From Ectocarpus siliculosus (Eukaryota; Sar; Phaeophyceae; Ectocarpales; Ectocarpaceae): a stretch of DNA of 40,316 nucleotides. The notes beneath the pieces are model-generated. The model was not told where the DNA came from. It made no database searches and saw only the letters and a list, made by a program, of their open reading frames with translations. The position numbers were made by a program, and so were the translations under genes. Position 1 is the stretch's first letter. Every line of letters starts with the position of its first letter. Where the stretch lies: NCBI GenBank assembly GCA_000310025.1, contig FN649743.1:1298540-1338855 (forward strand). Reading direction: 5' to 3'. Positions 6,952 through 40,316 of this stretch are shown here, one piece after another.

Positions 6952-7000
<49 letters not shown>

Positions 7001-8635: not shown

Positions 8636-8700
<65 letters not shown>

Positions 8701-9103: not shown

Positions 9104-9260
9104 AACTATGATCCGGGTGAGTGCGTTGACCGAATAGTCGCTGCGCTGGTTTTCGCTTGGTTTGCACTGCAAAGTTCTCTGCGGGTGAGCGCTGTAGGCA
9201 GATGATGAGATGCGGGAGACACCGAGAGTGTGAGAGGTGATGAGAGATGAGACATGAGAG

Positions 9261-12398: not shown

Positions 12399-12406
12399 TC
12401 ATCTTC

Positions 12407-14631: not shown

Positions 14632-15625
14632 GGTTGATATGGAACGGCGGTGTAGGTACGCAGACCTGCTTCAAGCGACATGGTGACATGGAACAGCCGT
14701 AAATGCTTCCTTGTTCCTTCGTGCTATTTTCGATGGTGCGGAACAACTCCGGAGGGTCCGAGCGAAGAGAGTCAATCAAGCGAGCTGGCAGCAGACAGCA
14801 TACACACCAAAGGAAACCAATAGCAGTACCCACCCATGCCGTTCTCGTCTCTGGTACAGGACTGTTCGCCGGCGTATAATACAGCCCAGGAAATCACTTC
14901 CTCAGCAAACGTAGATAGTATCGGTTGTTTGGCGTGTGAGCGGTTCGTGTGGTCAAGATCGAGATCACCACACAACAATAATCTTGGTCGCTCATGCTGC
15001 GTGGAGAGGAAGCGTGGCTAGAAGATATCGCGTGTGTGCGCGCCAACAACACCTTCCGCCAGGGAATACGGTACAGGTACGCGACGACCCTCCTCGGACC
15101 CAGCATGGCTTGGGAATGGCGTACATGACACATGACATGGCAGAGCGCCGGAGGCGGATCGGAAGCTCAACCGCGTAAATATGCATAAATGCATATACAT
15201 AGAGCGAGCGCGGTCTTCCTCCTCTCTCGTCTATTTCCCTTCGCTAATTCCTGTGCAGTGTCTAGTTCTGCCACCCTTTCCTTCTCACCTTCGGCGCCTG
15301 AGCTCGATGGGTCGAGGGTATACGGCAGACAGGGGGTACAGGGAGGGTTGGTGGGGAAGGAAGAGCGAAGTTCTGACGTGTGGCGAGCGTCCAGCACCTG
15401 CCACGCTAAAAAAAAAACCGGGGGTCCGCGTTTTGCATGTATCGTACCCTACATACCCAAACCAAATAGGGGACATTTGAAGGCCCCCCTTGCCGTCGTG
15501 CGAGAGCAAGCAAGGTAGAGAGGAGAGCCTCTGTTCGACTCTGTTGCAACGGGCGCGGTCATCATCGCCTCTTAACGGAGTTGAATAAGGTGGAGAGTGG
15601 GAGAGTATTGCAAACGGGGAGAACG
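14632..15625. promoter_or_regulatory. Shared 5' region between divergent IQ and gamma-CA-like genes
   Basis: About 1 kb separates the two divergent start codons, so it should hold both promoters. An A/T-rich stretch with overlapping ATGCAT words lies at about 15177-15200. No clear TATA element or other motif can be assigned. Open frames here overlap one another and are not supported as genes. Confidence 0.4.
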
Positions 15626-18600: not shown

Positions 18601-19021
18601 GCCTGGTTGCAACAGCAAGACTCCGATGGAAGCGAATCAAAACGTTTTGATCCTCCTCCCTTCGACATGGTACCCACCAATTGCACCCGTCCTCATCCCT
18701 CTTTCTGCCTCTTCCCTGTCGTATTCACCCCCCCTGGTTGTTCTCCAAAAGGCAAACGCAGTAAGAAACAACGCTTACATAACCTCGGGAACGACGAGCC
18801 CCATATCTGCTCTTATTATTGACACAGTATGCCGCCGGCCCGTCTAAGTATTGTTTCTGTTTGCCATTTACTCCGTTCCATTCAGGTTCGTGCGCAAGCT
18901 CAGCGAGGAGGACGTGGCGGAGATAGAGGCAGAGGCCGAGCGAAGGAGCGCGCTGGGAGAGTTGCACGCGGACGAGTTCAACCCTTACGGCCAGGGGTAC
19001 GTCCAGGCGGAAGAGGCATGA
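15626..19021 (+). CDS. Mitochondrial gamma-carbonic-anhydrase-like protein (hexapeptide-repeat, probable complex I subunit)
   Basis: Five exons: 15626-15797, 16756-16899, 17552-17717, 18210-18344, 18886-19021. Phases are 1, 1, 2 and 2, all GT-AG, giving 250 aa. Residues 1 to about 55 are Ala/Ser/Arg-rich with almost no acidic residues (MLAASVVKSAKRGALDVARR), a typical mitochondrial presequence. The rest is a left-handed beta-helix built of hexapeptide repeats: VAPCASVVGNVRI, HSCVWYGAVIRGD, VKIGAHVHVGDKAVI, CKIGAGAVVAEGSVMEEG. It closes with ELWAGNPAKFVRKLSEEDV, the conserved family C-terminal box. In gamma-CAs three histidines bind the metal. The aligned positions here (VINT, VVIEPGAVLT) appear to be Asn, Pro and Thr, as in the non-catalytic CAL subunits of the plant complex I gamma-CA domain. 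The family is clear; the complex I role is inferred from plant and algal relatives. Confidence 0.9.
16206..16233. repeat. Perfect 11-bp hairpin in intron 1 of the gamma-CA-like gene
   Basis: TTCCGTCCATA (16206-16216) and TATGGACGGAA (16223-16233) are exact reverse complements around a 6-base loop. No terminal repeats or target duplications are seen, so its nature is unknown. Confidence 0.7.
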
Positions 19022-20441
19022 TTAGGCAGCCTACTTTCGTGCAGCGCGGCAAGCGTTTGTTCCTCCCCCCCCTTCAAGGAGGGGAGTGGGAGAAGAGAGG
19101 GTTATAGGTTTCGCCCTCGCCTCCGGTCGAATGTTCGGGTGTTCCCCGCTGAAACGCAGGCACGCTTGTTGGGATAGTTGTTCAGAAAGAGAAATGTCCT
19201 TGAACCACACGCAGACCTGAGGCGAACAAGGACAGACTATTGCTGTCTTGGTCTAGTGCGGGCTGTGCGTTTCAGAGAGAAGAGGGATTGGTGGAGGACC
19301 GAACTCGGGCTGTATTTCATGGGATAGTTCTAGGGAGGGTTTGCGTGTTTGTGGAAGAACTGTTCGACACCGGGAGATCCGAGCGGCAAACTTTGACGCC
19401 TTGATTTTGAATCGCCTGGTTGGAGCTGCAATGACACGACATGTTGGTGCGGTCTGTTGACATTCGTTTGGCCCGCGGATGGCAGAGTACAGCAGTGAAG
19501 GGATCTCAGTAGTGCCGGTGAAGTTTTCATGCCCGACACGGAAGTGCTGGTGGAATAACTCGGTACCGATGCGTCATCTACCTACAATATTGTATTGCTT
19601 GGAATTGTGCGGATGCCCACTTTAGTGTCGTTGAATTCGGCTTGCACATCCTGGCACTAGTTTTTCCCTCCCACTTGCCGCATCAATCTTCTTTTTGCGT
19701 GTGCGGTGGCGATGCTGGGGATAGAGGCACCGCTTGCAGGGAATCCGAGGAATATGAGCCCCACCAGATTCCGGGTTATGGCGAGAGAGGACGACAACAG
19801 CAATAGTCTAGTCGTCACGGGGATAGATCAACCGAGTTTGTGATTTTCTTCCCGCACGACTCAAAGCAGGAGCAGCGCCAAATGCTTGTGTAAGATTCGC
19901 TCGTGTGGTGGAGCTTTTTGCGTTGCGCAGTCCTTACCGCGAGGGCGAGGGAACGCCCGCATAAAGGACGCGATCGGGAAAGAGCCACATCATCCGTACA
20001 TGACCGTTGGTCGAGATTGGAGGGTGCAGGTCCACCGCCCCCTTTGCTTGTAGCTGGCAGCAGCGCTGTTTGCTATGGAGGTATGCACTCGTGGACTTAG
20101 TCGCGGATATCAACGAACCTGGTTCACTTGTGCTCTATGTGCTTGCGTCCTCGCTAACGAAGACACCCAGCAAGGTGTCCGTACGGTCAATTGCACCGCT
20201 GTTGCCTTCAGATAGCACCATGCATCGCACATGCAGCGATACCATCGTTCGTGTGTCGCATTCGAACCTTCAGTCTCTTGTACATGTACACTACACACTA
20301 TTACCCCGTTTACTCCGCGAAAAGGTTCTCTTGGTTCTGAATTCGGAATAGTTTGAGGCGAGGCAATTGCACCGTATTGACACCATCCAAATCACATTGG
20401 ATCCCTGTTCCACGGATCAGCAACACCGGCGCAAAGTCATC
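19022..20441. other. Intergenic: 3' UTR of gamma-CA-like gene and promoter of dioxygenase A
   Basis: No supported exon. The first part should be the 3' UTR of the gamma-CA-like gene. The last few hundred bases before 20442 should hold the promoter and 5' UTR of the downstream gene. No polyadenylation hexamer or promoter element is obvious. Confidence 0.4.
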
Positions 20442-21472
20442 ATGGCATCTTCCTCGCACGGTTACGACGATGGCGGAAGTGACGATGCCTCGGTGCAACT
20501 CAACCCCCGCCAAGAGGTCAAGCGCTTCATCAGGAACGTCGAAACTCCTGGTACCTTCGCGTTCGGCTCGAGCCTGCTCGCTCCTTCTCCAAAGCTCACC
20601 GTGCAAGGTCTCGGGAGCATCTCCCTACCCCTGAGCAACGAACACGTGGGCGCGCTGAGGGGTGCCGCCGAGCGCGCACCGTTCGGTCATGGAACAGAGA
20701 CGAAGGTGGACGAGAGCGTGCGTCGGGCGTGGCAGATCGATGCCTCCCTCCTCGGGCTCTCGAACGAGTTTGCTCAAGCCGTAGGGAAGAAGTACGCCTT
20801 GCACGCCGCGGGAAAGCTGGGGCTGAGGGCCAAGGCCTTGGGCGTGGAGGCCAGGCTGTACAAGCTCGTGATGTGAGTCGGCAGGGAAAAGAGAGACGCG
20901 TCGTGTACAGCTGGGCGTGGATGCATCGGGACCCAAGGGCAAGCTTGCAACATGTTCCGTTCGTCTTGAGAACAGAGTAAGCACTGCTGTGTGATTTTCA
21001 AACGGCGGGTTTTTCAAATTCAAAAATCAACCCCGTTCGTTCATGTGTACTGACTGCTGGTCCGTGAAACAGATAAACCGCGAGGTGCGTGTAGACTGGC
21101 GCCGGGAAAAGATTAAAAAACCCCAGAAAAACCATACACCAAATTGCGCACATATATCCAACATACAACAGTAGTAGCCTTGTGTAGTGTATCTGCTATA
21201 TGTACAGTATCCACGGTGGGGGTCCCTCTATAGTGCGGGTTATCTAGTGCGGGTGCCCGATATAGTGCGGGTGAAATCGCCTGGAACAACTTAGACCCCT
21301 CAATAGTGCGGGTGCCACCTCAATAGTGCGGGTGCCGCACCATTCGGGGAATCCCTCTATAGCGCGGCCTTTGTCCCTCTCCAGACCCTCAATAGTGCGG
21401 GTACCGACGTCACACCCTCAGAATATTGTAGCACCAGTACCGCACTTTGCAGCACATCTGCTGTCATTTTGT

Positions 21473-21508
<36 letters not shown>

Positions 21509-24500
21509 CTTCACGTTAAAAACCGTTCCGGTCTCCGTTCAGTACGTTCCAATGTCCGTACTATAACAGTCCAACTGACGCGGACGCCTTCCGTGGTCAC
21601 AAGCCAACTACCAGGTACCATTTTGCCGCACAGTTCTGCTGTCTTGTTTGGTACCGCATGCATGGAGTGTCTGAAGTAACATATGTACCTGTGTTGAATG
21701 AGCTACAGCAGATTCGAGTTACAAGTACGCCCCGTTTTGTTTCTTCGTGCGTGCAACCCACCCATCCCCGCAGACGTTGTGGTGTTGTGTAGAGTGGGGT
21801 TTTGTTGGGAAAGCTGAGAGGCTGTGGGTCCATATTGACGTGTTCTTTGTTTTTGGGGTGTTCCCCCTTTCCTTGTCGTATCTATCTGTGGGAGTCCGGG
21901 GTTTTGGGTCGTGCTGAAAGTTGTTTGAACGGTACGTGTTTTTTTATGTTTTGGCAAGGTTGGTCGTTCTTGCCTCGTACCAGTGGTAGATTATCCTGTG
22001 AACATTTATATGTACAAGGGACACTACACAATGGAACAACACACCTTTGCTACCAGCGTACATTGCGCAACATGTCATGGAGCACGTATAAATGTCTGGT
22101 GGTCTGTTCATGGATGTGGTATCACCGCTACGCAGTGTTCGCAACATGCTGTTGTGTTCTCGTCTTACCCACGAACGAACGCAGCCTTCTATCTTGCAGA
22201 CGCCACGTCGATTTTTCCCCCTCGCGTGTTGCGCGCATCATGCACTGCCGCCTGCATAGGCCTTTTGATTCATCCTGTTCGGACTCTATACCAGTGATAT
22301 CGCGAATAGTACGCCTTCCCGCACTATTGATGGTACTGAGAACCCTGAATAGCGCGTCGTTGAATATTTAGTGCGTCTTCCCGCACTATTCAGGCCCGAA
22401 ATCATGTAGTGCGGGTGCCCGCTATAGTGCGGGTGAAATCGCTTGGCACATACCCACACTATTGAGGGACCCCCATGGAATAGAGAGGAGAGGACGGCAG
22501 CTGTACTGGGGAGTAGGAAGTGGTTTGAAAAGGCGGGCAGGGATATCGTTAGGATAGACAGACTAGGGAAGACATTTTTGAGCCACCTTTGGCAAAGTAG
22601 GAAGGGACGATTGGCCATCGGTGATCGGTCCTGTGGGAACAATGCTCCGTCCTCTCGAGGACGCGTGGTCAATGGTCTAACCGCTAAGGCATGCAAAACA
22701 TAAGACTACGCCCCCCCCCCCCCCCCCCCCCCCCCNNGCTACAAGTCAGCGCTGACTTTGTAGTATGGTGGCTATGCTACATCTAACAAAAGTACCATCG
22801 GGGCCCTTCAACTCGTTTGAGCTGTTGGACCTCTTCGGTTTTCGCCCCAGGAGTCAGCGCTGACTTGTAGCATGGCGGATATGCTGCACATCTAACAAAC
22901 GTACCCCCAGGGTCCGTCAACTCGTTTGAGCTCTTGGACCTCGGTGTTAACCCCAGGGTAGGCTGTAAGACCATGTACGCACGTCAGTGTCAAACACCCA
23001 GTCAAGAAGCAATCGCACGTCAGCATTGTGTGTAAACAGGGGCAGCAGCTGCAACCATAAGCAGAAATATGTACCTTCAGCAGTCGAGTCATGTCGTGGC
23101 GTTGTCAGCAGAGGTGCAGAGCTAGGCAGACCGTGCAGACCGCCGCTCAGGTTGGGCCCGACGTCGGCATCGCGGCATACATAAATGCATACTATGCATA
23201 CTATGCCTACACACAGATACACATGCGTGCGGCATGCGGGGTTTCAACCAAGGAAAAGGTCGCCGAGCTCCTAAAAATGGAGCCAACACCTTTTGGAAGT
23301 AGTCTATCGATATATGCATACAACGTCTGTTTTTCCTCTGTCTGCTCTTTGCATGTTCTTGCGTCACCCCTTACCGCGGTGCCCTCTTTACCCCACTCCG
23401 GAGGGAGGCCTTGAAATCCCTGTACAATCAGCGCTGCCTCATGCGGTTAAGCGGCTTGCAGGCGGGAATAACGTGTTTTCACTTGGACGACTGGAATGTA
23501 TACCATGACTGTCAGGGGTGGATTCCAGACATTTTTATTTCCCGGAAAAAAGGCGTAACAAATGGTCACAGAGGGATTCGAACCCCGGTTGTACCTTTCA
23601 GCAACCAAGAACAAGAGGACCAGGAGAACCGTTCGTGTCGGAAGATGTTCAGAGATACCTCAGGTACTGCCTGCAGCAGCGGCGAACGATCGTCAAAATG
23701 AAGTTTCCAAACCCAAGCAACAACGTTAAGTCCATACACCCCTGAAGCACCTAGTGCATTGGACCCATCACATCTGGAGCGTAGAATTTAATTTTACTTT
23801 TCTCGCAATCCTGGTGTTATTTTTTGTTTTGCTGGACTCGTCCGTCAACTACGACGTGTTTCTCTCGATGTCACGTGCACTCCTATACTCTCTGTCCCTC
23901 GGCCTCTCTAGCACACGGGTGCATACAGAACGGGAAAGATGATGTCAAGCACGAAGTGAAGGAAATCTTAACCTTTCCATCTCCTAATCCCATGCTGGTC
24001 TTCAAAACAACTGCTGTTATTGTACCATTGTTGTGCTCAACTGTTAACCAGGGGCGCGGCAATCAACTCACTTCTGCTGCGCCGCACACATCGTAGAAAA
24101 TTCACAAGCACGAGATGTCGTCTCCATCAAAACTACCTTGTACTGCTAAGAAAAAGTCGAACCGTTAGTGCTTGCAACGAAATTTGTGATCAGGGTGATC
24201 ACACGCTATTTTTGAATCGTTTGCAAAGCCGAGAATAAGAACTGTTTGTGAGGACACAGGCTTTGCCTCGTTGGAAGGAGACCTCGATCGTAGTACCGGG
24301 GACTGGCAGTTCTCTTCGTTGAGATTTGGCAAGGAAGATCTCGAAAAAGAGAGAGAACAAGAGAGTGACACTCAAGGGAAGAGGGAAGCGAGGACCAAGG
24401 GTCCCGTCTCCGCAGGTGCCGCTGAAAGTCCGTATCCATGGTCAGGATTCTTGCTGTTCAACCATTAGCAAGATACTCCGCTCGGATCGGATCTTCCCAC

Positions 24501-27500
24501 CGTGTATGTGCAATAACGGTTGTAACACTTTTACACATGTGCTCCACATTTGCCCCAAGATACAGCGAGGCCTCGCTGGCTTCGAGTACTGCGGTTAGTC
24601 GCATATAGTGTATATTCACTCCCATCGAAGTTGCACTGCACCCGGATACTCAAGAGATATGTATGTGCAACATCGCAGCAGCACAACTCCTGCCGAATCC
24701 TGTGGTGGAAGGACTGGTGTTGTCCAAGGTCACCATTTAACGCCCACCGCGTGTTTCGGATGGCGTGTTTTTCGTCGGGTGTGGAGATATTCTCACATTC
24801 TGTCACATTTTGTGAGCCTTCTAGCATTCTCCCCCTCCTGAAAAATTCCCCTCCATTTGAAAATGGTCTGTGCTTCCAACAGGTACGAGAGTGGAGGACA
24901 CTTCCGGCCACACAAGGACACCGAAAAGGAGGCCGGGATGTTCGGAACGCTCGTGGTGCAGCTACCGACCGCCGCCGGGCACAAGGGTGAGTCTTTGATC
25001 GTGCGCCACCGCCGCAAGCAGCACGTCTTCGCCTGGGAAGACCCGGACGGGAGCTACGCCCGCAGACTTGGGGGTGGAGTGGCGGCAGCTGTGGCGGGAA
25101 CGGCAGCCGGCGTACCGACCGCCGCAGCGGATGGGGTCGCCGGGGGCATGGCCAGCACTCCGCCCTCTTCTCTTCCCGTGCGTTGCGCGGCGTTCTATGG
25201 CGACTGTGAGCACGAGCTGCAGACAGTCACGAGCGGTGTGAGATTGTGCCTCCTGTACAACCTCGTGCGGACCACGCCGGGTCCCCAGCCCGTCGGCGCC
25301 GTCGGCCAGAGCGGATCGGCGGCGTAGCTCCGTCTCTCGGACGCAGTAGCTGCGTGGGGCCGTCCCGGCAGCAGCTGCGACGCCGCCAAGTTCATCGTTC
25401 CGCTCGAGCACGAGTACACGAGGGTCAACATGTTGTTCGGCGGTCTGAAGGGTCGGGACCATGCGATGGCGGACTCTCTGCGCGCGTGCAGGGATCTGGA
25501 CCTGTACCTGGCGCACGTCGTGAAGCACGAGAGCGGCACCGCGGCTCCGCAGCATCCGCAGTACGGTTACCGTGGACGGGGGAGTAGCCCCGGTTATGGC
25601 TGCGGACCCCGGAAGCGGCGCAAGAAGTGTCCATACGACTCCGACTACACATCAGCAGACGACGACAGCGATCACGGCGACATGTTCAGCCCAGATTACG
25701 ACGACGACGACTACGAGTCGGACGCTGAAGACCAGGAGATGGACTATGAAAACGACGTCGAGACGGATGTTGCGGCGAAGAACTGGGTAGCTTGCAATGA
25801 CAAACGAATATATCTGGACCTCGGCATCGACATCGAAAGTGAACTTCTCGGCTGTGATGATGACGACGATGCTGAGTATGACGAGGAGGAGGCCATGGAA
25901 CTCCTATTCCCGGGCAACGAACCCGACAAGCGGGAGTACGAGGGGTACACGGGGAACTACAGCCCAAGCTTGGAGTTTTGGTACCACCGGGCTGTACTCG
26001 TCCTCTGGCCCGCCTCCGCCACGATGCGCACCGCCCTCCGTTGCGGGACTCACGCCGCTCTCAGCGCGGCCCGCCAACGCTCCGCCCGGTACGGCGCCAC
26101 CAACACCCTACCCTTGGCTGATCTCGCCACGATCGTCTCTCTCGCCGAGAGGAAGCCGGAAGAATACGAGTTCGCCAAGGAAGAGCGTTACGCGGCGACC
26201 GTCTTGGACTTGTGCGCCGGTGCCGGAGCGGCAGCGCTGGACTCTTCTCGCCGCTTCCTTCAACTCCTCGCCGGCGGTACACCGGGCGCCGTCGAGAATC
26301 TGGGTTTTCGAGGTGACGGTCTGTCGCAGGGAGTGGCGGCGCTAGTGAGGGCGGTCGGGTGGCAAGCGGTAGGGGGGGACGTGTTGCAAATTGTGAAGGC
26401 TAGCACACTGGAGCAAGCGAGATGCATCACCGGGCTTGCTTGGAAACTGTCCACGGTTCCCCAGCAACAGCAGCAGCAGCACGCTGCCGGGGGTGGGGAT
26501 TCCAACGACTCTTCGGCTGGTGCCCTGATCGCCAGCACTTACGCGGGTGGCATCGCTTCCGACCCTCCCGCTCTCGAGCGCGTCACCGCCTACGGAGCGG
26601 CCGGTATTGTCCGCCTGTTTCTTCTCCGACTCCCCTGCTGCAACGGCACATGTTACGGTACCGACCCCCAGCTCTTGTCGTTCGCTAGGGTTGGGAGCGT
26701 CCGCTTGCAGACAACCGCTTTGGCCGCGGCTGTTCACGAGTTTCTAAGGGGGCTACCAACTATCTTGAAAAATTCTATCGCTGCTGCAGGTGCCCACTCG
26801 TCCGCGGTGGTGACCCTAGCGACGAAGCTCTGTTCGCGTGGGTTTCAACACCTGGGTAAGACGGAGGTCAAGACGTTTGCGGAGGATGTGCTGTGGCTGG
26901 CGGCGCGCGTCGACGGCGCCGGCGGGTTGGAGCAGGCATTCGCTGGTGCGGTATTGACGAGCTTGAGAAGCGGCGACTCTCGTCAGGTCCGCAAGGGTCA
27001 GGGCAAGCTAAAGGCGGTGCTCAAATCCGAGACCGTGCAGGCCGCCGTCCGTGACGGCGGGGGCTCCGGTGCAGTGTTCTGGAGGACCCTCGTGTCAGAG
27101 CGGATGAAAAAGCTTCAGACAATCGCCCCGCCCGTGATGACCTGGCGACAGCCTAACGCCATCTTCCATGGTACGTGCTGTGTATCTGGGATTGCGCCGA
27201 AAACGTAGTGTCTAGTGTCGCTGTGCTGTTCATGTATTGTTGGGAGCAATGAATTCGTCCGCGGCAGTGACGAGGGGGTGACACCGATCGTTCCACATAG
27301 CGTGTTCGGAGTCAGGGCGTCCATCTTTCTCCAACCGGCGTTACGAAGCACCAGAGATCCTATGTTCGTCTTTTCAAGCGCCCCCCCCCCCCCCTTACCG
27401 CCCCGGGTCCTCGCAATACACACCACGTGTCTTTCCCACCACACCACACCTCAGAACACCCTCAAGTGCAGCAGTTCCTCCGCGGCCCCGAGCCGAATAT

Positions 27501-27945
27501 GACCTACACGCGATCGGGCACCTTCAGCAACAAACAGCACGCCAGGAATTTCGCCCGAAAGTACTTCTCGTCCAACTTCAGCGAACCCCGACACTTCAGC
27601 GCACGGTGCTACGAGCAAGGACGCGGGCGCAGCGCGTACGTCAGCATTACCAAAACCACGGAGTTTTACGACGAGGACGTCAGAGTTTACAAGGAAGACA
27701 CGGCTGAGGCCGCCGTGTTACGCGGTCTCTTGGGTAACAATAAAGCCAGCCGCAGGGGCAGGAGCGGCGGGGGCACCGCCGGGGGTGAGAACGGGGCTGC
27801 TGGTGCTGCTGGTGCTGCTGGTGGTAGTACGTCCGCCCCCCCTCCTTCTTCCGTGAGCGGGAACGCTAGAAACGGCGTGGGGACGGCAGCAGCCGGTAAG
27901 CGGCAACCCGAAAAGGTGGAAGCGATCGATCTGTGCAGTGACTGA
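20442..27945 (+). CDS. 2OG-Fe(II) dioxygenase paralogue A, interrupted by an in-frame stop
   Basis: Exons 20442-20872, 24883-27170 and 27455-27945 join in phases 2 and 1 into a frame of 1070 codons, with TAG at codon 292 (25325-25327). Residues 1-143 form an N-terminal region ending ARLYKLVM. The prolyl-4-hydroxylase-type core follows: GGHFRPHKDTEKE gives iron ligands H154 and D156, GDCEHEL gives H254, and GVRLCLLYNL gives R264, the likely 2-oxoglutarate anchor. After the TAG the frame stays open. It encodes a long acidic Asp/Glu stretch, the family block YEGYTGNYSPSLEFWYHRA, an Ala-rich helical region, and in exon 3 HPQVQQFLRGP, a Gly/Ala-rich linker and a final EAIDLCSD. Substrate is unknown. 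Paralogue B has CAG at the TAG position, so this is a point nonsense change. It could be a recent pseudogene, an allele, or a truncated 291-aa enzyme that keeps all catalytic residues. Confidence 0.8.
21218..22474. mobile_element. Non-autonomous DNA transposon with terminal and subterminal repeats
   Basis: The ends are inverted: GGGGGTCCCTC at 21218-21228 and GAGGGACCCCC at 22464-22474. Each is followed inward by an (A)TAGTG(C/T)GGGT motif. At least six copies of TAGTGCGGGT lie at the left end (21231-21402). Further copies in both orientations lie at the right end (22318-22460). Clustered subterminal repeats of this type are transposase-binding sites in several cut-and-paste families such as hAT and CACTA. 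No transposase is encoded in the 1.26 kb. A target duplication is not evident, so the superfamily is open. It sits in intron 1 of dioxygenase A. Confidence 0.65.
21471..21507. repeat. (GTT)n microsatellite
   Basis: About twelve GTT units, interrupted once by GAT, inside the TIR element of dioxygenase A intron 1. Confidence 0.9.
22711..22737. repeat. C homopolymer ending in two ambiguous bases
   Basis: Twenty-five C followed by NN at 22736-22737. The ambiguous bases mark a place where the sequence is unreliable. Tract length and the join to the following repeat may be artefacts. Confidence 0.9.
22738..22957. repeat. Two-copy tandem repeat, about 107-bp unit
   Basis: The unit contains the 12-base palindrome GTCAGCGCTGAC, then CATCTAACAAA, then TCAACTCGTTTGAGCT, TTGGACCTC and CCCCAGG. 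It occurs from about 22738 and again from about 22850, with roughly 85-90% similarity by eye. It lies in intron 1 of dioxygenase A directly after the ambiguous C-run. Confidence 0.8.
23563..23584. repeat. tRNA 3'-end-like sequence (primer-binding-site or tRNA-fragment candidate)
   Basis: TGGTCACAGAGGGATTCGAA plus CC is complementary to a tRNA T-arm and acceptor end; the minus strand reads GGTTCGAATCCCTCTGTGAC and then CA. A complete tRNA cannot be folded: no matching 5' acceptor strand or D-arm is found on the minus strand. The segment could be an LTR-retrotransposon primer-binding site (TGG start, preceded by AACA) or a tRNA-derived relic. No LTR pair is seen. Confidence 0.35.
25325..25327 (+). 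other. In-frame TAG in dioxygenase A (CAG in paralogue B)
   Basis: The context is GGATCGGCGGCGTAGCTCCG here against GGATCGGCTGCGCAGCTCCG in B (minus strand, near 33740). The flanking codons align exactly, so this is a single-base nonsense change and not a frameshift or an intron boundary. Confidence 0.9.
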
Positions 27946-29016
27946 CTTCATGTTTGTGTAGGACTCGTCCGGAGGTGAACATTTGATGTGCCTGCGGGAA
28001 AAGCTGAGGGAGCGTGAAAAGTCTTGTAGCGTCTGCGTGGCCGGGACGGGCGACCGTACGCTTTCGTGGTGCGTGTGGATTTTGCTCGGCTACTTGTTTC
28101 CCCCGAGGCGCTTTTGATAATCGCCCCACTTTTAGGCTTGTGTTGAAACCTCTATACACTGGACTGCACACCTGCACAACAAAGAGCCTTTGGCGCGTTA
28201 CGACCGTGGCACTTAGTTAGTGCAACCACAAAACGCAACAAGAGAGCGAGAGCGGTGTTCTCTGCCCGCACGAGAGGTTGGGGAATAGATCAAGAATCGA
28301 CACAAGTATTTCACCCCTTGTGGTGGTTGTTGTTCAGTCGGGGGTCGGAGGATACTGTTCCGACGAGGGGCTCCTCAATAAGGTAATTGGTACCCGGCGG
28401 TGCACGTTGCCTGTTCGTGACGCTTTTGCCCCCCTTGGCCATAACTTTGTTTCCCTCGGCTTATCTTTGTTGTGACCAAAAAGTGGTGTTTTTCGAAGGT
28501 GTTCTCTTCGTCGGAGATGGATCATTTGATGTAAGTGTTGGATTTAGCGAGGCCTCCTGTGGTCCCGCCCAACCTTGGGTGCATTTCGAATCTTGTGACC
28601 ATCGGCCCAGGTCCGCATTGAATGGAGGCTCGCCCAAACTTACCCTAGTTGTTGCTTGGGCATGCACGCTTGCTTGCTGACGGGGTTGGCTGTTGACGTG
28701 TTTTGTCGAGGCTCCGGTTCTCCGGAACCATGTCCGAGTTGGGCAACATCGTTGAGATATGTGTGTTTTAATTTCAGGGTAATGTGGTTGAACACACCCA
28801 TGTGGTTCACGGAGATACTAGCGGCTCTTGGCGGCATCAAAGTTGTCGTGGACATCTGGGATATAGTCAGCCGGGGATTTTTTTTAGTACTCTGATTTCG
28901 GATGTTGTCGGGGCTGATTGTCACGGTGAGGCTCGCATCCTTGCAGCAGTTCACAGTTGTTGGCAACATCAACCAGCGGACCAAACCGGAACTTTTGCCA
29001 GTAATATTTGAAAATT

Positions 29017-29391
29017 GTCTTGTAGAGCCTGATACCCACAAGGGAGATATCGCTGTGTGCTGCTCGGGAAACCGTGGAAATACAGGTACCGTAAGGTTGC
29101 GAGTCAGCGCACAAAGGTGCGAGCTATTTTCAAAGCGTAATTTTTCCACAACCAGGAGGCGACCACTGTCGAAAAGGGCGGTTTTGGAAATATCTCATCA
29201 CCTGACAAGTATCAGTTGGCGTTCGCACCCTTCTGGCTGTGGAGAAATTAGGCTTTGGAAATCGATCGCACCCCTGTGCGCTGACTCGCAACCTTACGGT
29301 AGCTTTCTCTGGCGATATGAATTCATTGCTGATCTATCTTAAGACTCTTTTCTTAGAGATGGATTCGTTGGGTCATAAGAAAAAAAGAAAC
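29017..29391 (+). mobile_element. Repeat family copy 2, split by a nested MITE
   Basis: The two parts, 29017-29088 and 29300 to about 29391, match copies 1 and 3. Shared blocks include TGTCTTGT-GAGCCTG-TACCC, ATACAGGTAGCTTT, ATGAATTCATTGCT and GAGATGGATTCGTTG. It ends in the A-rich ATAAGAAAAAAAGAAAC, as copy 1 does on its own strand. Orientation is plus, opposite to the other two. Confidence 0.7.
29089..29299. mobile_element. MITE, Tc1/mariner-type, 67-bp inverted arms, TA duplication
   Basis: Arms 29089-29155 and 29233-29299 are near-perfect reverse complements, opening CCGTAAGGTTGCGAGTCAGC and ending with its complement. TA flanks both ends (29087-29088 and 29300-29301). The related repeat copy at the right edge has the undisrupted ACAGGTAGCTTT, showing that exactly one TA was duplicated. 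It is 211 bp long and non-coding. Confidence 0.9.
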
Positions 29392-30459
29392 AATACCCTT
29401 GGCGAGTGCTTCACTCAGCCAATCGGCCGAATAGAGTACGGCCTGCTGATAGGAAACTCTCGTCCTCTGGAGGAAGTTCAGTCAGCCAATTGAATTGCGG
29501 TCGCTTGTCCGCTGTATCAGGACCGCTCACTGCCAAGAAGCCCATTGGTCGGGTTGGGTGCACGAATAATATTTTCTTGCACGCCTAGGTGCCTCCAGGG
29601 TGCTAAGGAGTGCACGGTCGCTCAATCCCTGCAACATTACCATTCCTTCTGTAGTTCTATGGCGCCCGATAAGTCGGAACTTTGCCGAGCAACGCCGATG
29701 CGCACCTCATTGACTACGCACCCGGGATTTTCTTTTGTGCCTGGGATGCAATTATTCTACGAGCAAACGAATTTTGCACATCCCCGGTACGCTCATGCCA
29801 GGGATTATTTCAGCTCCTCTTAAACCCAATAAAAACTGTGCTGGCCACGAGTTATCGCTGAGACCGGCAAAGACCATCCTCTGGTGAGATGAAGGCATCT
29901 CTCGCGCAGATCGGGCCGATACTGTAGTCGGCGAGATTGAATTGGTGTGGCCTACGCCTCTCGTGGGCACGGAACTAGGAAGAGGAGGTGGAGATAAGAA
30001 AATATACCCGTAGAAACTCAACAAAAAAATCACACGCTACTTGTACAGCTTGATTCCCCGGGGGGAAAACACCGCCGCGTCCAGAACACTTTGCCATGAG
30101 CCTATTTAACAGCCGGAGGTTTGTGCCCTCAGTTTGCCTAGAGGCAATCGTGGGGCGTGAACGCTGCATGAGCCTGGATCGCAAGCGCAAACAGCAAACA
30201 AATCAATCGCAGACACAACCGCCGAGTGCAAAGAAAACAAACCAATAACACACAAGACGTTCACCGCCTTGAATGGACAATGCTCGTTGTCGCACGCGAG
30301 CAGGACAGATCTTTCCTGCTAGAATACTTGAAGAAAGCAAAGAATACGAACAGAATAATGAACACGAAAAACAGTGCCACGTCTCTCCGCCCTCCCGCAA
30401 GAGCACAAATTTCAACGACCTCCGGCAGGCAGGCACTCCGGCCAAGAAATAAAACCATC

Positions 30460-33400
30460 TCACGGGCTGTCGCACAAATCAATCACCTCTCGCTTTGGGC
30501 GCCGCCCAGCAGCACCAATCTTACCGTTACCGGCTTCTGCTGCTCTGGAGACACCGGCCACGTTCCTGCTAACGGGAGCGAGAGGGGCCGTGGGACGACT
30601 CACTTCGTTGGCCCCACCTGCCGTAGCACCCCCCCCCCTACTCCCGATGCTCTTTAGGAGGGAGCGTAGGAGGGCGACCTCCGCTCGGACTTCCTTGTGG
30701 GCCTTGACTTTCTTTTCGTACAGATCCTTGGTCTTGGCGATCTCGACGTGTGCTCCCCGGCCGGCGCCTCGCGCGACAGCCTTGGCGTTGACCCCGTAAA
30801 AGCTGTAAGAGAATGTCCTGGCTTGGGCGATGCTCGTGAAGGGAGAACCGCGGGTGCCACGGTAAATCATGGTGCTCTGCGGTCCGCGTAGGAAGTGCTG
30901 TATCTGTGGATCTACACACGGTCGGAGAGGAAACAATCGCGTGACAGGAAAGTATGGAAACACGGACCGGGGAGAAGTGCCGGAAGCAAGGAGAGGCGAG
31001 CAGGTGCACCCCGGGGTATTCGCCGCCGTAGCTCATGCTGAAACGTAATTTTCCCGTGAGCTGCAACCATTAAATGAAGGTGGGGTTTCGCATCGTGAGT
31101 GAGGCTACGAAACCACAACAGCCCGCAGCAGAGCACCGTGGCATGAGCAAGCCCTTTTGTGCAAGCCAAAGCATAAATCAATACGGCTCAGCAAAATGCT
31201 ATTTCAAGATACTGTAGAATCACTAAAAACACAACTCATGCACTGCAGACGACCTCCCATCCGTAAACATCGCCGCACCTTTCGAGAAAACCGCGTTCGG
31301 CTGTCGCCAGCACAGCTTGGGCGCGGCCTGCGCCTCCAGGTTCACCAGTCGCTCCGACACCAAGGCCCTCCAGAAGACTTCAGAGCCTTTCTTGCCGCCG
31401 CCAGCCCCACCACCGCCACGAACGGCGGCCTGCACGGCCTTCGATTCGAGCACCGCCTTCAGCTTCCCCTGGCTCCTGTAGATCTGACTAGGGTCGCCGC
31501 TTCTCGTGCCCATCACCATTGCACCGACGAATCCCTGCTCCAACCCGCCGGTGCTGTCGATGCTTGCCGTCAGCCACAGCACATCCTCAGCGAACGTCTT
31601 GACCGCCGCCGCGGCCACGTCTTGGAACCCACGCGAGTAGAGCCCCGTAGCAAGGGTGACCACCGCGGACGAGTGATGGGGGGGAGGCTGCCCTCCCCCG
31701 GCGCCTGTGGCGGCTGCGGTAGAAGTTGAGGCAGCGGCGACGGTGCCTGACGTGACGGCGGGAATGGATCTCCCGGTGCTTGAAGCAGCGGCTACCGTGC
31801 CGTCCAGCCGGCCGCGGAACTCGTGAACCGACTTGGCCAAGACATCTGTCGGCAGATGGACAGCTCCCGATTTGGAAAATAACGCGAGGACAGGGTTGAC
31901 ACCGCTGCTAGCGTTGACGCTGAAGCAGGGAAGGTCGAGGAGCAGCAGGCGGACGATGGTGGGCACCTCCTTCGAGGTCACTCGCTCGAGAGCGCCAGGG
32001 TTGGAGGTGATGCCTTGTACATAGGTGCTGGCGATCAGAGCGCCCGTCGAACTGCTTTTTTCCTGCTGAAGCACAGGCTGCTGCGCAGCTTGGATCTCTG
32101 CCTTCACACCAGCGCCGTCTTGCTCAAGCCCAGGCTGCTGCACAGCTTGGACCTCAGCTTTGACATCAACGCCATCCTGAAGCTGAGGCTGCTGCGACGC
32201 TTGGGCCTCAACTTTGACACCAGCGCCGTCTTGCTCAAGCCCAGGCTGCTGCACAGCTTGGACCTCAGGCTTGACATCGCCAACATCGTCCTGAAGCACA
32301 GGCTGCTGCGCCGTTTGGACCTCAGCCTTGACATCAACACCGTCCTCAACCGCAGGCTGCTGCGACGCTTGGACCTCAGCCTTGACATCGTCAACACCGT
32401 GCTGAAGCACAGGCTGTTGCGCCGCCTGGACCTCAGCTTTGACATCAACACCGTCCTGAAGCTCAGACTGCTGCGACGCTTGGGCCTTACCCTTGACACC
32501 AGCGCCCTCCTGCTGAAGCTCCGGCTGCTGTTGCCGGGGAAGAACCAGCGTCGAAAGCTCTTCGACAAGCACGGCCACATTTCCCGCGTGTTCGAGACTG
32601 CAAGCCTTGACCACCCGAATCACTTCGCCCCCGATCGCTTGCCACCCAACCGCCCGCACTAGCGCCGCCACTCCCCGCGACACCCTCTCCGATACCAGGC
32701 CTGGAGTCCCGACCGCGCCCGATGTACCGCCCGCTAGGAGCCGCAGCAAGCGGCGAGAAGAGTCGAGGGCTGCCGCGCCGGCTCTCGAGCACAGGGCGAG
32801 CACATCTGCCGTGTCCCGCGCGTCGGTCATGAAAACATGGCCGGAGGGCGGCGCCGACGAATAGTAGGAGCCTTGACGGTGCGGCTTCTCTCGTTTAGTC
32901 TCGGCGAGGGAAACTATCATGGCGAGATCCGCCAAGGGCAGTTCGCCGGCGTCGCCGTACTCGGAAAAGCGCTTGCGGGCGACCCTGAGAGCGGAGCTAG
33001 GCCCGTTCTCCAGCTCCACGCGCATCTTTGCTGAGCTGGGCCAGAAGATGAGGGCCGCCCGGTGGTACCAGAAGTCTAGAGTTGGGCTACAGTTGCCTGT
33101 ATAACGCTCGTACTCTCGCTCGGTCGGCTCGGTATCAGGGGGGAACAGGAGATCAAGGCCTTTCGCGTCGGCGGAGTCGCACCCGTCATCATCGTCATCA
33201 TCGCTCTCCTCGGCGGATTCGTCCGGGTCTTCAAGCGGGAGATAGCCAAGAACCTCGTGGTCATTGATGTCCACGCCAGGGCCCGGACTCTGCAAATCGC
33301 CGTCACCATCCACCCAGTCCTCCGCCGTTATGGTCGTTTCGTGTACCTCCTCCATTTCCTTATCTTCAGGGTCTGACTCGTCGTCGGACTCGTCTTCGCC

Positions 33401-34184
33401 GCAGCACCCGCAACCTTCTCCGTCTTCGTCGTCGTCCTCCTCGCAACCGAAGCCCCAGCACCTAGATCGTTTGTGACGTTTTTCACGCTTGTAGTACCTG
33501 CTTCGTTCATAGGGGTCCTCCTGCGCGGTGCCGCTCTCGTGCTTCACAATCGTTACCAGGTACAGGTCCAGATCCCTGCACGCGCGCAGAGAGTCCGCCA
33601 TCGCACGGTCCCGACCCTTCAGACCGCCGAACGAAAGACTGGCCTTCGTGTACTCGTGCGCGAGCGGAACGATGAACTTGGCGGCGTCGCAGCTGCTGCC
33701 GGGACGGCCCCACGCAGCTACTGCGTCCGAGAGACGGAGCTGCGCAGCCGATCCGCTCTGGCCGACCGCGGCGACGGGCTGGGGACCCGGCGTGGTCCGC
33801 ACGAGGTTGTACAGGAGGCACAATCTCACGCCGCTCGTGATCGTCTGCAGCTCGTGCTCACAGTCGCCGTAGAACGCCGCGCAACGCACCGGAAGAGAAG
33901 AGGGCGGAGTGCTGGCCATGCCCCGGCCAACCTCGTCCGCTGCTTCGGTCGGTGCGCCGGCTGCCGTTCCGGCCACAGCTGCCGCCGCTCCACCCCCAAG
34001 CCTCTGGGCGTAGCTCCCGTCCGGGTCTTCCCAGGCGAAGACACGCTGCTGACGGCGGTGGCGCACGATCAAAGCACCACCATTGTGCCCGGCGGCGGTC
34101 GGTAGCTGCACCACGAGTGTTCCGAACATCCCGGCCTCCTTTTCGGTGTCCTTGTGTGGCCGGAAGTGTCCTCCACTCTCGTAC
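30460..34184 (-). CDS. 2OG-Fe(II) dioxygenase paralogue B (first exon not found)
   Basis: Minus-strand exons 34184-31279 and 30911-30460 join in phase 1. The first begins in the same phase as exon 2 of paralogue A, so an upstream exon ending in AT is expected but not identified. The core is intact: GGHFRPHKDTEKE (His codon 34156-34154, Asp 34150-34148), GDCEHEL and GVRLCLLYNL. It is followed by basic and Cys-containing acidic stretches, the family block YERYTGNCSPTLDFWYHRA, an Ala-rich region, and a Gln-rich repeat of eight to nine 18-19-residue units that A lacks. Exon 3 encodes DPQIQHFLRGP and ends EVIDLCDSP. About 1,120 residues are encoded here. The frame is uninterrupted, so it is likely the functional copy. 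Members of this family occur in fungi and other stramenopiles; I know of no established substrate. Confidence 0.8.
32064..32534 (-). repeat. Coding tandem repeat, 54-57-bp units, in dioxygenase B
   Basis: Eight to nine imperfect units read like QASQQPxLQDGVDVKAEV, with two alternating sub-types: LQDGVDVKAEVQ and LEQDGAGVKAEIQ. All units keep the frame. At the equivalent place paralogue A has only a short poly-Gln (VPQQQQQQHAAGGG). Gln/Val/Lys/Glu composition suggests an extended or coiled linker. Confidence 0.9.
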
Positions 34185-34445
34185 CTGTTCGGAAGTACAG
34201 ACAATTTTCAAATGGAGGGGAATTTTTCAGGAGGGGGTGTGTGTGCTAGAAGGCTCACAAAATGCGACAGAATGTGAGAATATCTCCACACCCGACGAAA
34301 AACACGCCATCCGAAACACGCGGTGGGCGTTAAATGGTGACCTTGGACAACACCAGTCCTTCCACCATGGGAATCGGCAGGAGTTGTGCTGCTGCGATAT
34401 CGCACTTCCACACATCTCTTGAGTATTCGGGTGCAGTGCCACTTC
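34185..34445 (-). other. Conserved intron segment shared with dioxygenase A
   Basis: The reverse complement matches 24625-24882 upstream of A exon 2 almost base for base, including ACGCCCACCGCGTGTTTCGG and the lead-in to the AACAG acceptor. Similarity fades beyond about 34450 and, in A, before about 24600. This supports a splice acceptor at 34185 and shows that the duplication includes intron sequence. Confidence 0.85.
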
Positions 34446-37400
34446 GACCGGAGACTATACTATGTGCAACTTAGCCGCAGCAAATCTAGGGAGAACGGTT
34501 GCTGTCCGCGGTATACCGAATAAATGAGTGATGTTTGTCACTCGGATCACTCTGTCCCTTCGAGTACAGTTCAATTACAATGGTCACTTTTCATCGTCTT
34601 GTAGATCGTTTCAGGATGGGGCCAACCTTCCTGCATGCGCGTGTTCAATGGTGGGTACTAAATACTCATCCTTTACAAGAGCATAACATTTTTACTTCTA
34701 CCCAAAGAAATCGAACAGATCAAACGGCTGCTACGATAAAGAAAGGGTAACAACAGCGAAAACGTACCCGCAGCTACCGGTTCTTTCCGCTGCTCTGTTG
34801 CCCCTGGTGTAAAGTAGTACAGCTGGAAAGCTACAAATGTATTTCGTTCCTGAGGCGACGCGTCATCTATATTATTTATGCCCCCGGCTACATCAGCTGA
34901 AGGAGAGAGCAAGTGCAAGTTCGCACAAAAAATGTCAGCGACGAAACTGGAAATTGTTAGTTGTCCGTTGCGTGCTTCCATGGCCTAGATTCGCATGATA
35001 TCTTGGGAGAAAGGTTGTTGTATCGTTTGGGAGGCCCCCATTTCATCGCGCTGCTGAGTACCGACGTGGTGTGTGAGTGGCGTCGCATGCTTTCACAGCG
35101 GCAGCAGGCAACCAGAAACGACACTAGAGGTGGTCCTTGAACTTGCAACGAACTGCCGATTCTTGTGGGTGGATAGGCGCATCGCCGCTATTCTCCACGT
35201 GTGTCTCTTCGACGAACAAAGGGTTTGAATGCGAACCAAGCGGGTTTACTGGGCGATTGCTGGGCCTAAAACATGTAGAGGTTTGATCGATCGCAGATTT
35301 ACAGCCCAAAAAATGTTTGAAAAGGCGTTTTACCCGTTGGTTGTTGCGTCCTCCCCATGTAAAGTCGGGTTTGTGCAATCCGCCACTCGTGCGTTCAAGT
35401 CGTTCTGTTTCCTCCAAGAGCGATTCCATTTTTTATAGCCTACACTCTATTTTTCGTGAGGAGCAGAGAGTAGTCTTAACGCCGTGACGTGTACAACAAC
35501 AGTCATCCTGAGACTGGGTGGGCCCACGGGCCTACTTCACCATAATAGTACCGCTCGAGTGTGCTCGATGCCGTGTGTGTCTAGCTTGTAAAGTATGTGC
35601 CTTACATACGCCGTTGCCTCATGAATCATCTTCAAGTAGCGAAACGGGAGAGCTGATCCGGTGTGGCGTTACCGTACGGATGCGAAACGCACAACAACGA
35701 GTGCCCCGAGAGTGGTTCTGGGGCACTCACTCACCGGAGGTACCTCGCGGTTTTATCGCGAGATATGTGTTGTAGAACGTACAAGGGGTGCTTCGGCCGC
35801 CCCCCTCGGGGACCCGTACCCGTGGGTAAAACATGCAAGTGTCACGGTTAATTTAGTTACGGTTTCAAGGAGTTGCACCTTTGGGAGGTTTGCATTATTC
35901 CCATAGAGTGCTGTATAGTTCTGTACATTCCGCAGAGCTCCTTGTAGAGCGTGTCGCCCGCGCACACGCTGCTCACTTCCTTTGTTGGCACTTGTGCTTA
36001 GCAATAATCAAAGCGAATACCGTATCCACGACCGGAGACCTTCTCCACGTTCCACAAGCCTCCTTCTAGGCTTTCTCTACCGCTGTTCAAGCGCTCCTTC
36101 GAACTCGGTGCAAGAGCGAGAGACTGCTACCAACAGGTCGGTAGCTGTTTAGTCACCATTTAGTCATGCGTGGGATCCTCTCAGAAACCAGACATGTGCA
36201 TATGTGACCCCTGCGAGCCTTGAACCAGAAGCTCGAGTCTTTTCCTACAAGACTTTCTCAAGTCACAGGATCCCTCTCAGATTACAGTCTCTCCACTTGC
36301 TACACAAGTGTCGAAGTTACTGACAACATCGATGTTTTAAGTACATCGAGGACAGATGCGTGTAATTCATAAATACATGCCACAGCAAAGAAACACATAG
36401 ATGCGGGTTCGCAGTCAGAGATTGAAAAGGTGCGTCACGGCTTGCTTGGTCGTGGTGCGGTGAGTTGCTGTTGAATTGCAATTGTTGAATTGCGGCGCTG
36501 AATCCCGGGGCAGAAATCCACACGAGATGGCGACTCCACGTGTGTGTTGTGCCAGAAGTGCCGGTTATTGCGTAGCTTTGGTTGCTGTTGGACACGTACA
36601 GCAGCAGCAACGCCAGACAGACGTTCGGAGAGAGCCTCGGAATCCGGCAAGCTGCCTATTCTCTCCTTTTGTTAAAGAGAGAGATGTGTCCCCGCTTTGC
36701 CCGCAGGTGGTGATCCTACAGCAGCAGTGTTTACAGCAGCAGTCCACATTCCCATGCATGGCTTACAGTGCGTGTGTACCTTCGCGTTAAGTGTATACAA
36801 CGGGTGTGAGTATGAATGCATGCAGGGGGGTTGGCTAGACGCATACAGTCAAGTTCAAATCCGTTCCCAAAAAGATCGGGTCGACAGAAAGAAAGAACGA
36901 AAGTGTCCGTGCGGGTAGCTCGTACGTTTCTTGGTAGCTCTTGGCACAGTGCACCGCAGGACGCAATACGTACGGGGCCCGCTGCGTATTCTGGCCTCCG
37001 GGAGCGGAAAGACTGAAAGGTTTTGGTTTAAACGGCGACCCTCTACGAACCTCGGATGTACCACAGCTCAGCGTTTCAGGCGTCACTCAGAGCTACACAC
37101 CGAAGCCCGGATCTTTAGACTCGAACCGGCGCGAGACAAACCCAAACAGATACAAGGCTCTCCTTCGGGAGTTAGGTGGCTTGCCTCCCGGGGGCGACGA
37201 AAGAGGACATTACCAATGTCATCACGGTTGCATCGTTGCATCTCAGCGTACGGTAGTGCCGGTTTTCCGTACAACCTGCAGAATTTGCGTTTTGTGCGGG
37301 GTATTGTTTCGTTTTCTCACCGTGACTTTTCGCGTGTGCATGAGTGCGTGCTGTTAGGTTGGCGGCATTTTGCCGCAGATCCTACTGCTGTGACCCGCTG

Positions 37401-40169
37401 CGTTTAGTCGCCCGTCTCATGGCATCTGTACCGTGATGCTCATGGTGTGTGGGAACATGTGTGCGTTGCGCAGGAATCAAAGTCTTCGTGTTTAGTCTAT
37501 GCAAAGAAGTTTGATTTTTTTTATTTGGGAATACATCCCCAGGAAGTAGACCCAGACTTTTTTTGGCTTTTTTACGGTACAGGGAAAAATTCTTTTTTTT
37601 ACAGGTGTATAAAATTTTTCCAAAAACGGGGTTCAGTTTTTCTTCATTTTTTTGTTCCATTTTGGTATTTTTTTTGGTAGTTGGGGGGGGGGGGGGGGGC
37701 AGGCAAGGCGTGCCCGGAGACGAACTTACTGACGTGCGTGAAGGACGATTTCAAGGCAGTCAGGGCAATACACGGATCCACGGACGACGAGCCACAAGTT
37801 TTCGAAGTCCCGAGATTACTTTGGACGCGAGCAGAGAAGGTGGAGTGGGGTGTGCCATGGCATGCGGGGGCATTGCATGGAGCTGAGAGGTCCATAACCG
37901 CCTGGCACAGGATGAAGAGGAGGATAGCCGACGACGAGAGCTGAAACGAGAGGAGACCAGCAACAGGACAGATATGGCAACAACCAAGGGAGCGAGAGGG
38001 GGTAGCAGACGGACGAGACGACAAGGGAAGAAAGCAAGAAAGAAGAGGTAGACCGAGTGAAGCGATTTAGGCCAAATTGAACTCCTTCGCTATTCGCCCC
38101 ACCCGCCCCCCCTGTAAGTTTGCTCTGTTTTTTTTGCGGTAACCATGATGGTGGTCTAGTAGATCACATGTGCTGGGTCGAGAACCTTCACTCCGCGCAA
38201 AGGGGATGGTCGCATCACGTTGTATAAAATTGGTCAAGCACCCTCGAGGCAGTTGCACAGTGTCTAAAACTGTCTCTGGAAGTGGAAGCACCAGATAATA
38301 AATCAAGTCATCCGCAGCTGTCATCCTTATGCAAGGAGGTAAGCACAAGATGTCTCGAACACCCTTAGCAGGATGCAGCGCACCCTCCATGCGACTCGCC
38401 AAATCCTCACGACGCTTCGCGCTTGGTGATGTGAGAGCCTTGTCCGGTGAGAACCCGGCGTGCTCTGTCCCGGCATTGTAGGGATGCGAGGTCAATGGTC
38501 CAACGACTACGGCAACACGGCTATCTATGCGTACACACATACCTCGTGATTGCACCATTCATTGCATCGACCCCCACGAGTGATGACATGCCTTTGCTGT
38601 TGCTGGTGGCCCTGATCTTGTTTGTTCGCTAGTGATTTGGCATTGCAATTGTCTTTTATTTTACTCATGTATACTTTCCTCCTTTTCTTTCTTTTGTATT
38701 TCTTCTCTTTTGTCCGTTTCGTTTCTTCCTCGGATGGTATTTTCTCTTCTCCATGCAGTACCAAGATTGAACAGGGGGGTGTACCTCTCTCTCTCTGGCT
38801 TATGATGTTGACTTCCAGCTTCTTTTCTGCCCCACATAGCGTGGAGACGGGCGCGGAGGGCGCCAGCCTATCTCTCGTTGATTTCAATTGACTTGCGGAA
38901 CGGGTCCATTTTATTTGAGTAAACGTTTTTTTGGCAAGTTATCCTGTGACCACGGGAATCGACTGGTCAAGTGTTTGATCAGTAGATATGTAGATGAAGG
39001 TGGGCAGAGATGTCGGAACGGTTTATAACGTGAAGACAACAACCACAACAATAACAGATTACCTTTGATGTTTGTTGGATGCATGGACAGTTTCGTGGGT
39101 GTCTTTGTGGGTGGACAAGTCGGGGTCACGTGGATGGGATTATTAATATATATAATTTTCTTAATAGACAGTTTCGGAACTAAAAAAAACGCTGAAATGA
39201 GGAAATATATTTTGAGTTAAGCCATCGTTCTGAGGAATGTTCCTGACAGTCTCGCCAGAACCCAAGATAAGGGAAAAATAAACAGATTTAACACCGGAGG
39301 GAGGCTCGTTCTGTGGAAATTTTGTCAACTTTTCGATTTAGCAGCTTTATTTGAAATAACACATCAGGCACCACACACAAAACATCATCAGGCACCACCC
39401 ACACGCACACACACAGTCTGCAAGAGCATGTCCAGCGGCCGCCCAAACGAAACCCAGCGCCCAGCGCAAAGGCCCTGGAGTTGGCGCGCCACCAACACAG
39501 AAAGGGGGAGGCTGCACGGTCAGACAACCAAGTTGGGGTTGGTTGTTGCGCGGCTTTAGGTCAGCAACACGCGCCCGTCACACACAGGTTGAAGCAAGGG
39601 GGAGAAAGAGCGCCGGAACGAACCGCGGCAACCAACGACGTAGAGGAGGTGGCAGCACCGCCAGCAAAGGGCAGAGAGGAGGAAGAGCACGCAGTTGCCT
39701 TCTGGTGACGGGCCGCAAGAGTATTCTCTGCTTCTACTTGAGAGAGCGTGTTTGACTTCGATGTGCCCCCGCCCCCAAAAAAACACCCTCTCCCCAACGC
39801 TTGAAATGCGATACACAGCACTTCGTACAGGGCTGCCGGGTAGTATGTGTACTTCCTGTCGCTGTTCTGGTGCGAGTTCGTGTGCTGGGGTTGAGGGGGC
39901 AACACAGACACGCACACGCATGCATGCACGCACACTCAACAGCAGTGGGAGCGCGGTGATCAGGGTGCAGCTGTCACGCAACGCACCACAAAAAACAGCA
40001 GTACCTGCGAACAGGGGAAGTTCGTTGGGTGACTGTCGTCCCACAGCCAATCACATGAAGCCGCCTTAAATCGGAAAATATTCGCCTGCAGGAAGGTTCC
40101 AGGAAACTTTCTTATCTCAAAATCTGTTTCCTTTTCTCAGCAAATTTGGATCCCCAGTCCGAAACTGTG
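34446..40169. other. No supported gene; possible intron 1 of dioxygenase B plus unclassified sequence
   Basis: No counterpart of dioxygenase A exon 1 was found here. The region includes twin hairpins at 35699-35728 and 35744-35762. It also has T-rich tracts at 37510-37680 ending in a 17-G run at 37683-37699. A short open stretch follows that run (37701-37944). A 163-codon minus frame lies at 38558-38067. A CT/T-rich tract at 38640-38758 ends in an AG acceptor-like site. A minus-strand AATAAA lies near 39345. None matches a family I recognise, and none has a splice partner I can defend. Confidence 0.35.
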
Positions 40170-40316
40170 TAATATGACACAACGAATCCATCTCTATCAT
40201 AGAAAAGAGTTAGAGACAGATTAGCAATGAATTCATAGCGTCAGAAAAAGCTACCTGTATGTCTACGATTTCCCAGAGAGCATATAGGGACATCTCCCCT
40301 GCGGGTAACAGGCTCA
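40170..40316 (-). mobile_element. Repeat family copy 3, cut by window end
   Basis: Nearly identical to copy 1 over about 140 bp, e.g. ACACAACGAATCCATCTCTA and CATATAGGGACATCTCCCCT. It differs by small insertions (AAAGCTACC for AAGCACC, GTTAGAGAC for GTCTGAC). Its AT-rich junction differs from the A tail of copy 1. It continues beyond the window. Confidence 0.85.

Follow-up and report, generated by a model that had tools for sequence, protein, structure and literature searches.

Probable ectopic gene conversion behind a near-identical block shared by two inverted dioxygenase-like genes

Two predicted genes, A and B, lie tail to tail in the window (the whole stretch of 40,316 nucleotides that was analysed here) and share a nearly identical segment of about 0.9 kb that includes both the end of an intron and the beginning of an exon. 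The question raised by this locus is how a block of such similarity, bounded on both sides and crossing a splice site, came to stand within a pair of genes that are otherwise strongly diverged. The anatomy of the two genes, the edges of the block and the divergence of silent sites within and beyond it are considered below, together with the explanations that they favour or oppose.

Structure and family of the two genes

The models of A and B (Table 1) are predictions made from the sequence alone. The predicted splice of A between exon 1 and exon 2, ...LYKLVM-YESGGHF, is similar on visual inspection to the arrangement in the relatives from Nocardia (...LHSMLVYEPGQFF), and exon 1 of A gave no Pfam match of its own. 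The phase of the splice between exon 2 and exon 3 is identical in A and B.

Table 1 Coordinates of the predicted gene parts, the shared block and the features within it (positions in the window)
Feature	Positions	Strand	Remarks
Gene A exon 1	20442..20872	+	Open frame from ATG (start codon guessed) to donor AT/GTGAGT
Gene A intron 1	20873..24882	+	About 4.0 kb; donor and acceptor from sequence
Gene A exon 2	24883..27170	+	H codon 24911, D 24917, H 25211, R 25241
Gene A exon 3	27455..27945	+	In-frame splice to ...HEHPQVQQFLRGPEP...
Gene B exon 2	31279..34184	-	Open throughout; H codon 34156, D 34150, H 33856, R 33826
Gene B exon 3	30460..30911	-	In-frame splice to ...KDPQIQHFLRGPQS...
Shared block, copy A	24589..25543	+	92.2% identical to copy B; change-point edges; dS of coding part 0.119
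Shared block, copy B	33524..34480	-	Self-blastn and change points
Divergent island	25113..25142	+	8 mismatches in 30; second cluster, with the first masked, 11/1000 permutations
Divergent island	25419..25434	+	7 mismatches in 16; top cluster of scan statistic, 4/1000 permutations
In-frame TAG	25325..25327	+	Codon 148 of A exon 2; B has CAG (33742-33740)

Both genes appear to be 2-oxoglutarate/Fe(II) dioxygenase-like. The Pfam profile PF13640 scored 21.8 bits on A (E 0.00038) and 19.2 bits on B, both under the curated cut-off of 27 bits, and NCBIfam gave no match for B at E 0.1. The resemblance of A and B to PF13640 is therefore drawn through their homologous relatives and not from their own profile scores; in the two bacterial relatives that were scanned, the same profile reached 46.6 and 29.3 bits, above the cut-off. 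Eight bacterial relative loci (L001-L008), seven from Nocardia and one from a Cytophagales bin, are 25-28% identical over the best segment. An alignment of nine rows was made from A, B and seven of these eight relatives, with L003 omitted as its reading frame seemed identical to that of L002. In these nine rows H10, D12, H110 and R120 are invariant, and all four are found in A and B; they would correspond to the iron triad H-x-D...H and the distal arginine of the superfamily. Past the block, the Y, G and N of Y-x-G-N and a W-Y pair are also invariant in the nine rows. The elements that A and B have in common with the aligned relatives in the 2OG-Fe(II) oxygenase superfamily (PF13640), all of them invariant in the nine rows, are H-x-D, H, R, FYGDCEHE and Y-x-G-N...W-Y. 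A C-terminal part and long inserts of low complexity are present in A and B and missing from the Nocardia reading frames. A coding tandem array with a Gln/Val-rich unit occupies 32061-32530 in exon 2 of B, with periods of 57, 111 and 168 bp and about eight copies of the 57 bp unit, and A has only a short Q-rich stretch at that place.

Structure prediction for 300 residues of B, the first of exon 2, gave a mean pLDDT of 38.3, which is unusable, and a search of solved structures with the Nocardia relative L002 as the query gave no match up to E 1. Viral contigs gave 28 pattern matches, none of them a relative.

Extent and edges of the shared block

When the window was compared with itself by blastn, the strongest match paired the two block copies in opposite orientations over 963 columns, with 92.2% identity and 10 gap openings. 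A likelihood model with two change points, fitted to 3061 aligned columns, placed the left edge at A 24589, within a range of 24587-24626, and the right edge at A 25511, within a range of 25505-25561. Under this model the identity is 93.1% between the edges, 42.6% before the first and 67.6% beyond the second. The initial annotation had put the block at 24625 to about 25545 in A and at 34445 to about 33527 in B, and both methods agree with these positions to within tens of bases; the high identity that it described is also confirmed, but its estimate by eye of 93-95% is replaced by a measured 92-93%. The block consists of approximately 290 bp of the 3' end of intron 1 and approximately 660 bp of the 5' end of exon 2. 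The identity is 92.1% in the intron part (290 columns) and 92.9% in the exon part (659 columns), and the intron is thus as conserved as the catalytic exon, as had been claimed. In total, 70 of 949 aligned sites are mismatched between the copies, and there are indels as well.

Outside the block, the identity of A and B is 41.4% upstream (440 columns), 67.5% in the remainder of exon 2 (1589 columns), which corresponds to the abrupt divergence of the coding sequence noted earlier, 44.6% in intron 2 (280 columns) and 57.7% in exon 3 (426 columns). In 30 shuffles of each segment, the number of identical columns averaged 101.6 and reached at most 125 for the 300 bp of intron upstream of the block, and averaged 102.8 and reached at most 128 for intron 2. 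The real counts were 108 and 119, respectively; as both are slightly above the shuffle mean yet within the range of the shuffles, there is no detectable similarity in either segment. The intron segment of the block is therefore far more similar than either of them. The right flank of the block is 67.5% identical, and the left is unalignable at present. The left edge is a ramp and not a step: identity is 85.7% over 24589-24697 and rises to 95.7% over 24698-24882 (Fisher p = 0.005, with the limits of the two segments, 109 bp versus the next 185 bp, picked post hoc from the alignment). The two copies of the block are approximately 8 kb apart, and the convergent, tail-to-tail arrangement described previously is confirmed.

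An artefact of the assembly, in the form of a collapsed or mis-joined repeat, is scarcely credible as the source of the block. The window does contain a 2-base N gap at 22736-22737, and the TAG in A could be a base error, but the gap lies outside the block and the copies differ at the 70 sites and the indels given above.

Silent-site divergence and the origin of the block

In the codon alignment of A and B, the 219 codons of the block have a dS of 0.119 and a dN of 0.058, and the 528 codons of exon 2 after the block have a dS of 0.845 and a dN of 0.357, although this remainder overshoots the predicted splice donors by a few codons, mostly in gaps. The dS values are simple Nei-Gojobori estimates on GC-rich codons, and they are approximately seven-fold lower inside the block than after it; the uniform synonymous divergence that had been named as evidence against conversion is not what is observed. 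The windows after the block are uneven, ranging from 0.22 to saturation with several saturated, and the silent divergence outside the block thus varies, since some later windows of exon 2 have a fairly low dS of 0.22-0.42. Among the 469 codons with the same amino acid in both genes, with Met and Trp excluded, the best segment of synonymous identity was A 24884-25571, which was matched by none of 10,000 permutations. Four-fold sites are identical at 112 of 121 positions inside the block and at 105 of 178 after it, a split that relied on the block edge from the same data; no such edge entered the permutation test. As codons are not fully independent, the permutation probabilities are to be read as strong and not as exact.

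Two further candidates from these comparisons were rejected. A second conversion tract near A 26795-27063 (80% identity; dS 0.22-0.35 in two windows) was not significant, being matched in 2128 to 5936 of 10,000 permutations of the 279 post-block synonymous codons under four penalties, and a lower divergence of the intron core than of the four-fold sites was unsupported (p = 0.31). The GC3 values were uninformative on the direction of conversion, being 0.80 for A and 0.77 for B in the block, 0.71 and 0.73 in the rest, and 0.76 in exon 1 of A.

Selection alone, acting as a constraint on the catalytic exon and on a regulatory end of the intron, is a very improbable explanation of these values. 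The block does span H, D, H and R, the expected catalytic residues; however, silent sites are little changed in the block and near saturation at the conserved motif just outside it, where the A-B dS is approximately 2.4 in a window of 39 codons starting at A 25895 and containing Y-x-G-N...W-Y. Because a conserved motif outside the block is near silent saturation, selection on the protein does not explain the block. Moreover, the intron part matches as closely as the exon part, and dN/dS within the block is approximately 0.5, which is not close to zero.

Ectopic gene conversion, from whichever donor, is very probably the origin of the block, and the neighbouring copy probably served as the template. 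The observations behind this reading are a bounded block of low divergence that spans a splice site, an exon flank that is strongly diverged together with introns that are unalignable, the inverted arrangement of the genes, and the clustering of the differences within the block. The initial annotation had proposed conversion between the convergent copies, and this proposal is supported, neither of the results that it named as refuting (uniform synonymous divergence, or an intron segment no more similar than the rest) having been observed. A and B would be old tail-to-tail paralogues, one of which, long after they had duplicated, would have suffered a break whose repair used a paralogous sequence as the template, the neighbouring copy being the likeliest. 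Approximately 0.8-0.95 kb would thereby have been overwritten, from the last part of intron 1 into the catalytic part of exon 2, in a transfer that was presumably non-reciprocal.

The differences that remain within the block are clustered (0 of 2000 permutations in both of the ranges tested). With island limits set post hoc at 25111-25150 and 25421-25437, 15 of 57 positions are mismatched, versus 33 of 756 in the rest of 24698-25510. The amino acid differs in all five codons from 25421 and, near the right edge, in all three adjacent codons of 25511-25519. As the differences are non-uniform, a single clean event is too simple. The clustering into islands suggests patchy or repeated conversion, and local relaxation or selection could be an alternative source of the islands. 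Under conversion, the islands and the left ramp may be remnants of older sequence or the marks of more than one event. Clustered differences would also suit several templates, as would be available if a third paralogue elsewhere in the genome had supplied the block to A, B or both in family-wide concerted evolution. Such a donor, which would be a case of conversion too and is counted within the probability given to it above, is possible but rather unlikely: there is no third copy in the window, where the B protein matched only A and B and everything else had an E of 0.36 or more, and A and B, at their distance of approximately 8 kb, are the simplest partners.

The left edge lies in an intron that is now unalignable, and there is consequently no visible flanking homology for strand exchange on the left. 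A partial duplication, or the formation of the left junction by end joining, is compatible with this edge. In a partial duplication, a segment of A would have been inserted upstream of an old fragment of B, and B would be a chimera without an exon 1 of its own. This course of events is in accordance with the left junction and with the search by tblastx and tblastn for exon 1 of B in the 5.8 kb at 34470-40316, in which no match rose above chance level (all had an E of 1.0 or more). However, exon 1 of B may lie past the window, intron 1 of A being already 4 kb, the frame of B is continuous across the right edge of the block, and the window yielded no additional catalytic segment of older date. 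We consider a partial duplication to be quite unlikely.

The in-frame TAG of A stands behind all of its H, D, H and R codons, and the protein up to this stop, with the predicted exon 1, has approximately 291 residues. A total of 626 open codons follow the TAG, approximately 614 of them ahead of the splice donor, and the TAG is probably recent because this frame is still open. When neutral decay of the 626-codon frame was simulated with substitutions only, 3.4% of 500 runs were free of stops at 0.06 changes per site and 0.2% of 500 runs at 0.1 changes per site. As half of the block dS is approximately 0.06, the stop is likely to be no older than the last exchange; it is probably younger than this exchange or of approximately the same age, and under gene conversion A would have gained it once this site had last been exchanged. 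The TAG could also be a base error. In a broader and rather doubtful extension of the conversion reading, repeated patchy conversion would keep re-equalising the catalytic segment of these diverging inverted genes, islands would escape it and change amino acids, and A would have become newly catalytic-only through the nonsense codon, with its active-site segment still common with B.

Precedents, significance and other features of the window

Similar cases are found in three studies. In Caenorhabditis (PMC3966223), conversion is described for neighbouring paralogues in inverted orientation, and tracts may extend into introns; the tract of A and B likewise spans an exon-intron boundary, and adjacent inverted pairs are among the examples given there, but the intron of A is long (approximately 4 kb) and only its last 290 bp or so are in the tract. 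The same study reports a suggestion that conversion is likelier for paralogues in the same orientation, which counts against conversion here, as A and B are inverted. The Hsp70 and Amylase pairs of Drosophila are presented in PMC3924832 as palindromic linked duplicates with ectopic gene conversion. A and B resemble them as linked inverted paralogues with a similarity exceeding the expectation from age, but differ in that they are homogenised over approximately 0.9 kb only, the other part of exon 2 being 67.5% and exon 3 57.7% identical. For the GOT1 paralogues of Tigriopus, PMC3728101 describes mosaic conversion with divergent islands that persist despite it, and A and B are also a mosaic of low and high divergence. 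Among the literature matches listed, no title or abstract opening concerned this gene pair. Conversion between inverted duplicates, introns included, is thus documented, and the tract of A and B adds a sound new case to a process that is already known.

Owing to the contrast within one gene, between the silent sites and intron 1 end of the block and the rest, gene conversion can be tested cleanly on this pair, in what is seemingly a large-intron eukaryote. Dating these duplicates by the catalytic domain alone would make them appear approximately seven times too young, as judged from the dS ratio. The TAG of A is also a nonsense allele for which other strains can be screened.

The window has a GC content of 53.5%, which together with the long introns may point to a brown alga, and searches of it with Rfam at gathering scores and with a tRNA scan gave nothing. 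Whole-frame Pfam scans covered six frames of approximately 1-15000 and four of the six frames of 14800-24404. At the left end of the window, a RING-type zinc finger (PF13445) was found at approximately 465-578 on the plus strand, with an E of 2.1e-7 and above the curated cut-off. An imperfect inverted repeat occupies 13387-13702; aligned with its reverse complement, it shows 78.5% identity in 326 columns. At 22711-22942, a run of 25 C is followed by the 2-base N gap and adjoins a 109-bp repeat, present in approximately 1.8 copies at 22744-22942. Between A and B, near the centre of the inverted pair, there is an imperfect palindrome at 29085-29304; the sequence beside it (approximately 29295-29394) recurs at 9299-9433 and 40177-40316 and may be a small dispersed hairpin element.
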